Shown: piece by piece, positions 21,504-35,070 of the stretch | Numbering within the stretch: the first letter of the stretch is position 1 | Layout: each line of letters opens with the position of its first letter | DNA from: an uncultured Bacteroidota bacterium | GTDB lineage: Bacteria > Bacteroidota > Bacteroidia > Flavobacteriales_F > PHOS-HE28 | Length of the DNA: 64,000 bases | NCBI GenBank assembly: GCA_902826215.1 | Contig: CADEDY010000013.1 | Span: 1 to 64,000 of the forward strand | Reading direction: 5' to 3' | Program-made: the position numbers and the translations under genes | The notes under the pieces: model-generated | What the model was told of the DNA's origin: nothing | Database searches by the model: none | Seen by the model: the letters and a program-made list of their open reading frames with translations, nothing else

Positions 21504-21522
21504 GTCGACCCACTGGGTCGAC
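21504..21522. repeat. 19-bp palindrome, copy 1 (GTCGACCCACTGGGTCGAC)
   Basis: Two perfect 9-bp arms around one central base. It lies 62 bp before the Y-family polymerase start. The same sequence occurs at 21547 (inverted centre) and at 32034 inside dnaE. Confidence 0.9.
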
Positions 21523-21546: not shown

Positions 21547-21565
21547 GTCGACCCAGTGGGTCGAC
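21547..21565. repeat. 19-bp palindrome, copy 2
   Basis: GTCGACCCAGTGGGTCGAC, identical to copy 1 in reverse complement, ending 19 bp before the ATG at 21585. It may be an operator overlapping the promoter or leader of the polymerase gene, or a mobile palindrome. Confidence 0.9.
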
Positions 21566-31694: not shown

Positions 31695-31730
31695 GGGAGT
31701 AAGTGCGACGCATGCATCGCCCTTACTCCC
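31695..31730. terminator. Hairpin between convergent permease/peptidase and dnaE genes
   Basis: GGGAGTAAG (31695-31703) pairs with CTTACTCCC (31722-31730), extended after one mismatch by GCGA/TCGC. It lies at the junction of convergent genes and overlaps the end of dnaE. It lacks a T-run, so its efficiency as a terminator is uncertain. Confidence 0.5.
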
Positions 31731-34700
31731 CATACCGCGGATCCGGCTTCCACGGTAGCTTCTCCACGTATTGCGTGCGCAACGAGTAGTGCCCGAACTC
31801 CTCTTCCACGTAGCCCTTCAGAATGTACACGCCGCGTCCACGGAACGGGTACTGCGCCGCCACCGATGGGAACTGCGTACTGTCCCAAAAGTCGCCGGCC
31901 GGATCGATGAAGGAACCGAAGCTCATGTACGATCCGCTGTTCGTGGTGGTGGTCTTCACGTGGATCATGTAGCCGAGCATGGTCACGCGTTGGCCTTTGT
32001 GGGCGGGCATCTCCTTGGCGGCGATCACTGATAGTCGACCCAGTGGGTCGACGGTACAGGTACCCGGGGTGACGTTATCAGGTGACAGCTTACCCATCAA
32101 ACGACCATCGCGCCCCACCATCGGGAAGCGGTTGCCGACAGCGGGCACCTGATCCACCAACGTGAATGGATCACGCAGTGGGAAGCCGAGCAACTCCAAC
32201 TCATCGTAGGCATCGGCCAGCGGGTAGTGCTTCAGTTCGGGCAACTTCGGTTCTTCGACTTTTGTGACGAAGAGGTCACCGTCGGTGGATGCGTTCGATG
32301 GTCCCCGGTGCATCAGGGTGAGGTCCCAGAGCAGGCCCGGCTTGCTTTTACCGGTGAAGCGCAAGGCCCCCACGCGGATGAGGATGCGCGCCTGCTCCAC
32401 GTGCAAAGGCACACGACGGATCAGGTCCTGTAGATCATGATAAAGTCCGTTGCGACGGCGCTCGTTGAGGACCAATTGCACCACTTCGCTGTTGAGGCTT
32501 TTGATGTTTCCGAGGCCCAATACGATATATGCCTTTGGCTTCTGGCTACTGGCCACTGGCTGCTCTGTGCATTGGCTAGAGGCCAGCAGCCAAGGGCCAG
32601 GAGCGTGCAACGAACACAACTCCTCGCTGCGATTGATGCACGGTGCCTCGACCACCGCTCCTGCGCGTTTCGCCTCGTGCAGGTAGAACTCCGTGCGGTA
32701 GAATCCGCCGAAATTGTTCGCCACGGCCACCATGAATTCCAGCGGGTAGTGTGCTTTCAAGTAAAGGCTCTGGTAGCTCTCCACGGCATAGCTCGCGCTG
32801 TGACCTTTCGCGAAACTGAAGCTGGCGAAGCTTTCGATCTGCCGCCATACTTCTTCCGGCTGGCCCGCCGGATAGCCCTTCGTGCTGCAGTTGGCGAAGA
32901 ACTGCTTCTTCACCAGTTTGAATTCCGGACGATCGCGGTAACGGATGTTCATGCCCCGGCGCACCTGGTCCGCTTCTTCCAGATCGAGTCCTGCGTACTG
33001 GCTCACCACGCGCAGCACATCCTCCTGGTACACCATCACGCCGTAGGTCTCGGGCATGATGTCGTACAGTTCCTTCGGCGCCTGCTTGCGACGCTCCAGG
33101 TCGTTGTGGCGCAACAGGTATTCGCGCATCATGCCGCTCTCCGCCACTCCCGGACGAATGATACTGCTCGCCGCGACCAACCCGAGGTAATCGTCCACCT
33201 TCAACTTCTTCAGCAGCATGCGCATGGCCGGGCTCTCCACATAGAAACAGCCGATGGTGTTGCCTTTGCGGATCAATTCCTTGATGGCCGGGTCTTCTTT
33301 GAAAAGGGCGATGTCGTGGATGTCCACCGCCGGCGGGCGTAATTCAGAATTCAGAATTTTGAATGTAGAATTCAGAACCGAATGCGCACTACTAGCGAGC
33401 GCAGCGTTACTTTCTCGTTCCGGTTCTGCAACGATGCTACTACGGTCGGTGCCAGTTGCACAATGCTTGGTGGGGACCGTTCTACATTCTTCATTCTGCA
33501 TTCTACATTCTACATTCCCTTTTGGGCCATTCACCATCTCCACCGCATCGCGTATGTGCCCCAGCCCGCGCTGGCTGAGCAGATCGAACTTGTGCAGGCC
33601 GAGATCCTCCGCTTCCAGCATGCTGAACTGCGTGACCGGAAAGCCTTTCGGCGGACGGTGCAACGCGGTGTAGTGCGTCACCGGCTTGTCCGTGATGACG
33701 ATGCCGCCCGCGTGGATGCCGAAATGGTGCGGCATGCCGATGAGCAACTTGCCGTAACGGATCACCGCTTGCGCCACCTTGTCCAGGTCCGCGCTGGTGG
33801 CATGCGAACTGGGGCGACCGCGCGCGTAGTAGCCGTGGCTGCCTTCGCTCAGCGCATCGATCTCTTCCGGCGGTAAGCCGACCGCCTTGCCCAACTCTCG
33901 GATGGCACCGCGCCATTGAAAGGTGGTGTACGTGGCGATCTGCGCCGCGTGGATGTTGCCGACACCTTCGCCGTTGTACTTGTCGAAGACATACCGGTAC
34001 ACTTCGTCGCGGTCCTTCCAACTGAAGTCGATGTCGAAGTCGGGTGGTTTCTTGCGCGCCGTGCTGATGAAGCGCTCGAAGTAGAGGTCCAACTCGATCG
34101 GGTCCACATCGGTGATGCCCAAGCAGTACGCCACCAAGCTGTTGGCACCACTCCCCCGCCCCACGTGGAAGTAGCCCTTGCTGCGCGCGAAACGAACGAT
34201 GTCCTGGTTGATCAGGAAGTAGCTGATGAAGTTCATGCGTTCGATCACATCCAACTCGTGGTGCATGCGCGCGATCACCTTGGGCGCCGCGTTCGGGTAA
34301 CGGTAACGCAGGCCCACCAAGGTGTCGCTGTGCAGCCGCTCGCGGTCCAATGCTTCGCTCGTGCCGAAGACCTTGCGTGTCTTGTCCGAACTATCGAAGG
34401 TGATGCTGCATTGCTCCAACAAACGCTCGGTGTGCTGCACCAGCTGAGGGAAGTCTTGATACATGCGGTGCACGTCCTCTTCACTGCGGAAGACCTCCTC
34501 CGGTGCGGCGAGTTCCTCCGGCGGCACCATGCTCACCACCGTGTTCTTGGCCATGGTGCGCAACAAGCGGTGCGTGTTGTGGTCACGCTTGTGGCGGAAG
34601 GTGACGGGCAACAAGGCCACGAGATCCTGCGTGCGTTTCGACCACGGACTGAAGGGCAAGCGCGTGAGGTCGCGCGGGGCGATGCCGATGCGTTCGTTCG

Positions 34701-35070
34701 GACGCAGCATCGCCGGTGCACTTCCGAACGGATAGATGAAGAAGGTATCCGCGAGCTCGGGTGCGCGATCGGGCAAGGCCTCGTCATCCAACAAAAGCGG
34801 GCTCAGCAATTCGTTCAGCTGCTGAAAGCCGTCGTTGTTCTTCGCGATGCCGATGTACAACAGCTGCGAGCCGCGACGGAACTCAATGCCCGCGACCGGC
34901 CGCACCTCGAACCGATGTGCATCGCGCACGAAGTCCGGAATGCCCGAGGTGCAGTTGATGTCGGTGAGCGCGATGGTGCGCACGCCCAGCCGTTGCGCTT
35001 CTTCCAAGAGCGCTTCGGGTTTCATCACTCCGTACTGGAAACTGAACCAGCTGTGTGCGTTGAGTACCAT
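31723..35070 (-). CDS. dnaE: DNA polymerase III alpha subunit, short error-prone (DnaE2-like) type, with in-frame repeat insertions
   Basis: The 1115-residue protein has an N-terminal PHP domain (NAHSWFSFQYG, ALTDINCTSG), the polymerase palm with the catalytic aspartates in PPDFDIDF (Asp344, 346, 348), GRGSGANSLVAYCLG, HhH elements and a C-terminal OB-fold. It lacks the usual tau-binding tail length of replicative DnaE. The second, shorter DnaE of Bacteroidota works with a Y-family polymerase in damage tolerance, as does DnaE2 elsewhere. Three stretches not expected in the family map to repeats: residues about 518-578, about 822-845, and about 1007-1013 (the 19-bp palindrome). The frame stays intact, so the gene is probably functional. 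Confidence 0.9.
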   Translation of the reverse strand: MVLNAHSWFSFQYGVMKPEALLEEAQRLGVRTIALTDINCTSGIPDFVRDAHRFEVRPVAGIEFRRGSQLLYIGIAKNNDGFQQLNELLSPLLLDDEALPDRAPELADTFFIYPFGSAPAMLRPNERIGIAPRDLTRLPFSPWSKRTQDLVALLPVTFRHKRDHNTHRLLRTMAKNTVVSMVPPEELAAPEEVFRSEEDVHRMYQDFPQLVQHTERLLEQCSITFDSSDKTRKVFGTSEALDRERLHSDTLVGLRYRYPNAAPKVIARMHHELDVIERMNFISYFLINQDIVRFARSKGYFHVGRGSGANSLVAYCLGITDVDPIELDLYFERFISTARKKPPDFDIDFSWKDRDEVYRYVFDKYNGEGVGNIHAAQIATYTTFQWRGAIRELGKAVGLPPEEIDALSEGSHGYYARGRPSSHATSADLDKVAQAVIRYGKLLIGMPHHFGIHAGGIVITDKPVTHYTALHRPPKGFPVTQFSMLEAEDLGLHKFDLLSQRGLGHIRDAVEMVNGPKGNVECRMQNEECRTVPTKHCATGTDRSSIVAEPERESNAALASSAHSVLNSTFKILNSELRPPAVDIHDIALFKEDPAIKELIRKGNTIGCFYVESPAMRMLLKKLKVDDYLGLVAASSIIRPGVAESGMMREYLLRHNDLERRKQAPKELYDIMPETYGVMVYQEDVLRVVSQYAGLDLEEADQVRRGMNIRYRDRPEFKLVKKQFFANCSTKGYPAGQPEEVWRQIESFASFSFAKGHSASYAVESYQSLYLKAHYPLEFMVAVANNFGGFYRTEFYLHEAKRAGAVVEAPCINRSEELCSLHAPGPWLLASSQCTEQPVASSQKPKAYIVLGLGNIKSLNSEVVQLVLNERRRNGLYHDLQDLIRRVPLHVEQARILIRVGALRFTGKSKPGLLWDLTLMHRGPSNASTDGDLFVTKVEEPKLPELKHYPLADAYDELELLGFPLRDPFTLVDQVPAVGNRFPMVGRDGRLMGKLSPDNVTPGTCTVDPLGRLSVIAAKEMPAHKGQRVTMLGYMIHVKTTTTNSGSYMSFGSFIDPAGDFWDSTQFPSVAAQYPFRGRGVYILKGYVEEEFGHYSLRTQYVEKLPWKPDPRYGE
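32034..32052. repeat. 19-bp palindrome, copy 3, inside dnaE
   Basis: GTCGACCCAGTGGGTCGAC, identical to the copies at 21504 and 21547. On the coding strand it encodes VDPLGR within a loop-like stretch before the C-terminal OB-fold. Its location about 3 kb into the gene argues against an operator for dnaE. Confidence 0.9.
32537..32605. repeat. Inverted arrays of 7-bp repeats inside dnaE (GGCYNCT type)
   Basis: Four direct heptamers (GGCTTCT, GGCTACT, GGCCACT, GGCTGCT) at 32537-32564 face four inverted heptamers at 32578-32605 (AGAGGCC, AGCAGCC, AAGGGCC, AGGAGCG) across 13 bp. It encodes an Ala/Ser/Gln-rich insertion (LLASSQ...PVASSQ) at a point where related DnaE proteins have a short link. 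Confidence 0.75.
33341..33514. repeat. 174-bp element with inverted arrays of 7-bp repeats, inserted in frame in dnaE
   Basis: Five heptamers of AATTCAG type (33341-33375) and five of TTCTNCA type in inverted orientation (33480-33514) flank a unique core of about 104 bp. It adds roughly 60 residues between MVNGPKGN and AVDIHDI, two segments that normally adjoin in DnaE. The frame is preserved. Confidence 0.8.

Follow-up and report, generated by a model that had tools for sequence, protein, structure and literature searches.

Inverted heptamer arrays in a Bacteroidota dnaE gene: a probable ORF-less relative of elements that carry four-helix-bundle genes

The intervening sequence (IVS) in the 23S rRNA of Coxiella burnetii has tandem GACAGAT heptamers just before the start of its S23p ORF, and their copy number varies between strains (PMC4990558). 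For the four-helix-bundle proteins, the solved relative 2gsc has been described as a ring-shaped pentamer of four-helix bundles, and homology links PF05635 with Avd of diversity-generating retroelements (PMC4990558, PMC10053308). Heptamer and octamer arrays are also known from Geobacter metallireducens, where they are paired on opposite strands at variable distance, within and between genes, one class having the consensus MTYCTGA (PMC2700814), and the TAACTGA direct repeats of Beggiatoaceae, Cyanobacteria and Bacteroidetes form heptamer arrays of patchy distribution (PMC4679880). Palindromes within coding sequence are exemplified by the Rickettsia palindromic elements (RPE), which are about 100-150 bp long, lie in frame in protein genes and are tolerated as an extra peptide (PMC10969869). 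Here we describe an insert in a dnaE gene, bounded by inverted heptamer arrays, within a stretch of 64,000 nucleotides (the window), and compare it with these systems.

The dnaE insert and its host gene

The insert lies in a gene for a second DnaE-type polymerase with the Pfam domains DNA_pol3_alpha, finger, HHH_6 and PHP; a separate, longer DnaE of ~1214 aa is encoded on contig C8 of the same genome. Three findings go beyond the initial annotation: two more insertion sites in this gene and, described below, the replacement of inserts from species to species while the sites stay fixed, and a link with four-helix-bundle genes. The features are as follows.

31723-35070, minus strand: host gene, second DnaE-type DNA polymerase III alpha subunit (dnaE2-like), intact 1115-aa ORF.
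33341-33377, minus strand: site S1, arm 1, five AATTCAG/AATGTAG-type heptamers (TRF period 7, 5.3 copies; inverted partner at 33480-33517).
33376-33479, minus strand: S1 core of 104 bp, flanked by the five-heptamer blocks and overlapping the end of arm 1 by two bases.
33480-33517, minus strand: S1 arm 2, five TTCTNCA heptamers (TRF period 7; 95% identity over 38 bp to an array on contig C3).
32530-32606, minus strand: S2, second element, in frame, TGGCTNC heptamers in inverted orientation around a short loop (hairpin of -42.2 kcal/mol, z -3.5).
32034-32052, minus strand: S3, palindrome GTCGACCCAGTGGGTCGAC of an unrelated repeat family, found at 17 places in the genome.
Positions in the host polymerase: S1, aa 514-582; S2, aa 822-846; S3, aa 973-1016.

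The initial annotation had described the S1 element (33341-33514) as inverted heptamer arrays around a 104-bp core, and this anatomy is indeed present, with five heptamers on each side. The left arm (33341-33377) reads AATTCAG AATTCAG AATTTTG AATGTAG AATTCAG AA and the right arm (33480-33517) TTCTACA TTCTTCA TTCTGCA TTCTACA TTCTACA TTC, with 80-88% complementarity between them. Only three period-7 arrays were detected in the 64-kb window, all in the dnaE gene, and two of these are the S1 arms. A 16-bp pattern had 13 matches in the window, where 3.8 were expected and no more than 8 were seen in any of 100 shuffles; the S1 element accounts for 9 of these matches. As RNA, the element folds far more stably than its shuffles (z -4.0), the complementary ends forming a stem. 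A search of the genome for inverted heptamer pairs and related cores had been suggested as a check; array pairs were found, but a search of this genome and of the genus for the S1 core returned no relative, the arms alone giving matches.

The 174 bp of the element are a multiple of three and are read in frame in dnaE as 58 codons, where roughly 60 added residues had been claimed previously, and both peptides quoted at that time occur in the translation of the DnaE ORF. The whole variable segment at S1 comprises 69 residues, compared with 7-8 in insert-free relatives, a difference of about +61. A further proposal, that the arrays could expand in threes without loss of frame, holds as arithmetic, three heptamers being seven codons, but not as a rule of growth. 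A perfect AATGTAG or TTCTGAA array passes through all three frames and so contains one stop per 21 bp; free expansion in threes would therefore not be tolerated. In S1, the variant units AATGCAG, AATGAAG and CATTCAA remove exactly those stops.

Alignment with E. coli Pol III alpha places S1 in the 575-582 gap, at the palm/fingers boundary, which answers in part the suggested check for a surface loop; the AlphaFold model of the host polymerase is weak (mean pLDDT 57), and loop placement therefore rests on the alignment. In this weak model the S1-S3 segments are all coil and of lowest confidence, as are parts of the core. We infer that the dnaE insert would be translated as a disordered insertion in a tolerant loop.

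Other repeats are present in the window. The palindrome family GTCGACCCANTGGGTCGAC occurs at 32034-32052, 21504-21522 and 21547-21565, at 17 places in the genome as a whole and also in dnaE inserts of sister species. Its members are similar to the GACCCCGCTGGGGTC palindromes that adjoin the one full-length Y1 (IS200-like) transposase gene in this genome, and on this likeness the family is possibly a REP-type repeat of the Y1 gene. At 2-318 there is a 90-bp tandem repeat of 3.5 copies that probably codes for a Cys-rich repeat.

Replacement of inserts at persistent sites

When DnaE was aligned with its relatives, the same places were found to hold either different inserts or 7-8 residues, the latter in some species of the genus and in outgroups; a 60-residue segment conserved in DnaE of distant relatives without heptamer structure was not found among them. 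In ~15 species of the genus, S1-S3 contain differing inserts that are in frame, stop-free and mostly hairpin-forming, built of AGTTGTC, ATTGGTG, AGTGGCG, CAAGACA or GGGCCAC heptamers, of GATCAGAN octamers or of other palindromes. Octamer arrays take the place of heptamers in dnaE of G002 and G016-G019, and some inserts have mixed ends (G013, G022 S2). S2 is occupied by three different elements in G004, G006 and G019, whose proteins are otherwise 87-90% identical.

We compared 42 inserts, each of at least 60 nt, with 42 control segments of the same genes. A period-7 or period-8 array was present in 30/42 inserts and in none of the controls (0/42), and folding with z below -2.5 was seen in 24/42 and 1/42 respectively. 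The inserted codons contain no stop in the frame of the gene (0/2048), against 34-107 in each of the other five frames; we conclude that the dnaE inserts are kept translatable. In G003, S1 contains a ~120-bp unit, consisting of a heptamer element and a short piece of dnaE, in about four tandem in-frame copies that add ~145 residues (L063). Neither a target-site duplication nor a clean empty/filled pair could be read at the dnaE sites, because close relatives hold other inserts at the same sites.

These observations support the earlier suggestion of an interspersed palindromic element that uses coding genes as harbours, the corresponding place in orthologues being either occupied by a different insert or empty. 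Elements of the same build also lie in frame in other genes of this genome.

L313, ~1178-1248: in-frame heptamer-array hairpin in icmF.
L314, ~1067-1123: in-frame heptamer-array hairpin in the inter-domain linker of a fused pyruvate dehydrogenase E1 gene.
L243, ~1000-1085: in-frame heptamer-array hairpin in mfd, a TGGCTNC pair.

Protein-gene harbours are therefore recurrent in this genome. The icmF and pyruvate dehydrogenase inserts are two of the three ORF-less inverted pairs formed by the GAGCYNY family, which in the same genome also brackets a four-helix-bundle gene on contig C1.

Inverted heptamer arrays on either side of four-helix-bundle genes

The best match of the S1 arm in its own genome is the contig C3 array (95% over 38 bp). 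At 43.33-43.85 kb of this contig, TTCTNCA-type arrays flank both sides of a 126-aa gene, and a genome search for the heptamers identified these as the only other clear array of the type. The 126-aa product scores above the cut-offs of both NCBIfam TIGR02436 ('four helix bundle protein') and Pfam 23S_rRNA_IVP. Relatives have 1-12 four-helix-bundle genes per genome.

This arrangement extends over many phyla. With a profile search based on a narrow alignment, 80 TIGR02436-type loci were sampled, of which 76 were scored for period-7 arrays within 250 bp of the gene, the thresholds being our own. Arrays were present upstream at 39/76 loci, downstream at 47/76, on both sides at 35/76 and on at least one side at 51/76. 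In the controls, other periods gave 0-3 loci, and distant flanks had an array on one side at 0-5 loci and on both sides at none. Paired arrays at one locus are inverted copies of each other: in 24 of 38 loci the units are at most one mismatch from reverse complementarity, compared with 3.6% for mismatched loci. The heptamer itself differs between elements, with 33 distinct units in these 38 loci. Octamer arrays were seen at three loci of other phyla (L142, L160 and L191), inverted on both sides in two of them. Within the genus, an array was present at 48/70 four-helix-bundle genes, and on both sides at 30/70. About one-third of the genes have no array that reaches our threshold, and there are also arrays far from any such gene; overall they are rare, with three in a 400-kb genome sample, one of which adjoins a four-helix-bundle gene.

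The heptamers of dnaE inserts and four-helix-bundle arrays are matched within genomes. In 7 of 11 species, the heptamer of the dnaE insert was exactly that of a four-helix-bundle array of its own genome, against a mean of 2.1 when genomes were shuffled (P = 0.0005); the 11 species are not fully independent, and some of the matches have a weak array behind them (ACACCTC in G016, for example). The count was restricted to exact matches: with one mismatch allowed, a random heptamer finds a partner in the pool in 83% of cases, which makes such matches uninformative.

The intergenic site on C3, between putative symporter and deacetylase-like genes (named from sequence), also differs between species. 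Three species have a gene-carrying element with AATGTAG-type ends there, two have a gene-carrying element with CAAGACT-type ends, and two others have an ORF-less GAATGGT inverted pair. The sites are therefore persistent but their heptamers and contents vary, which is also the pattern at S1-S3 of dnaE.

Interpretation and relation to known systems

We consider it likely that the dnaE insert is an ORF-less relative of the four-helix-bundle heptamer elements. With slightly less assurance, we assign it to a group of small elements with inverted heptamer (sometimes octamer) ends, whose full-length members carry a single TIGR02436 gene; this remains, on balance, the reading that we favour. Such elements could work as follows. 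The four-helix-bundle protein would recognize the arrays, either as DNA or as the RNA or DNA hairpin that they form, and would help to copy or exchange the elements, ORF-less ones being served in trans. The elements would then land at persistent sites, or replace one another there, and in dnaE only those copies would survive whose frame stays open and whose position is a loop that tolerates them. Mobilization of ORF-less elements in trans by this protein is the more tentative part, to which we give somewhat less than even weight. We know of no nuclease or transposase activity of the four-helix-bundle protein, and the sharing of heptamers within a genome could stem from gene conversion between arrays rather than from transposition. 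Also counting against the favoured reading are the genes without an array, the arrays remote from such genes, the dnaE inserts that have mixed ends or are other palindromes, and the lack of a readable target-site duplication or empty/filled pair. A route by reverse transcription, as for Avd, was set aside: no RVT_1 gene is present in this genome (3/16 of the genus have one), and an Avd-like retro route is therefore not required.

The most serious alternative, which we nevertheless regard as unlikely, is local expansion without mobility, in which replication slippage multiplies the heptamers, hairpin-primed template switching writes the inverted copy and the gene is mere cargo or a neighbour. 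It would account for the degeneracy of units inside one array, the occurrence of period 8, the persistence of sites whose contents change and the failure to see target duplication. It does not account for the strong enrichment of arrays beside one protein family in many phyla, for an exact heptamer common to separate loci of one genome or for the rarity of arrays elsewhere. We give about half as much credence to the possibility that the arrays are binding sites of a DNA- or RNA-binding regulator, possibly the four-helix-bundle protein itself. The paired opposite-strand arrays of G. metallireducens, one class of which consists of five MTYCTGA heptamers, have been called putative global regulator binding sites (PMC2700814), but many of the present arrays lie within coding sequence and are read in frame, and orthologous sites of different species have different heptamers, unlike a conserved regulon.

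Movement as REP/REPIN-type elements by a Y1 (IS200-like) transposase appears very improbable. Y1 genes are present in most complete genomes of the genus, including one in this genome, but that gene is adjoined by the palindrome pair GACCCCGCTGGGGTC without heptamer arrays, and this palindrome resembles the S3 element instead. We attach least weight of all to a functional, selected polymerase loop that is repetitive by chance: in its favour the frame is open in all species, yet sequence and length differ even between species whose polymerase is otherwise 87-90% identical, and other species have no insert or 7-8 residues.

More broadly, S23p/IVP genes across bacteria may lie at the heart of a separate class of mobile element with hypervariable inverted heptamer ends, the heptamer being matched to the protein lineage, ORF-less copies being mobilized in trans and settling in frame in essential and repair genes, and the 23S rRNA IVSs being a special rRNA case; we put this forward tentatively, as somewhat less probable than its negation. 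The results suggest a little-noticed class of selfish elements able to hide inside genes. TIGR02436/PF05635 proteins are widespread; action on the bracketing arrays, if true, would give them a testable substrate, and would tie together rRNA intervening sequences, the heptamer and octamer arrays known from several genomes and in-frame palindromic inserts in protein genes. Ends that are matched yet fast-changing pose a question of co-evolution that is directly testable, and for annotation the elements explain odd, species-specific peptide insertions built of heptamer arrays. We found no description of inverted heptamer arrays linked to four-helix-bundle genes in the open-access literature, where searches for such arrays led only to the papers on Coxiella, Geobacter and Beggiatoaceae; this is not proof of novelty.

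Among described systems, the TAACTGA repeats differ in having one fixed heptamer, in direct orientation, mostly intergenic near start codons and hardly ever inverted. MITEs and REPIN/RAYT systems resemble the elements described here in that they are short and non-autonomous, have inverted repeats and rely on a partner gene at another locus; here, however, the partner is not a transposase and the ends are hypervariable tandem arrays, and in this genome the heptamer arrays do not flank the Y1 transposase gene, as they would in a REP/REPIN-RAYT system. The Geobacter consensus MTYCTGA is close to the present heptamer, although it was read there as a regulator site and without a link to four-helix-bundle genes. 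The 23S rRNA IVSs share with our elements both inverted-repeat ends that form a stem and an S23p/four-helix-bundle ORF, and the GACAGAT heptamers of Coxiella are an independent published instance of heptamers at an S23p ORF. IVSs, however, sit in 23S rRNA genes and are cut from the RNA by RNase III, whereas the dnaE insert lies in a protein gene, has no ORF and would be translated; the frame that is open through all inserts argues for translation rather than for IVS-like excision by RNase III. The closest precedent for in-frame palindromes is provided by the RPE, with which in-frame coding insertion is shared. RPE families have a conserved consensus and peptide, whereas in the elements described here the core is unique and the arms alone are shared, with hypervariable arm sequences and ends composed of tandem heptamers.
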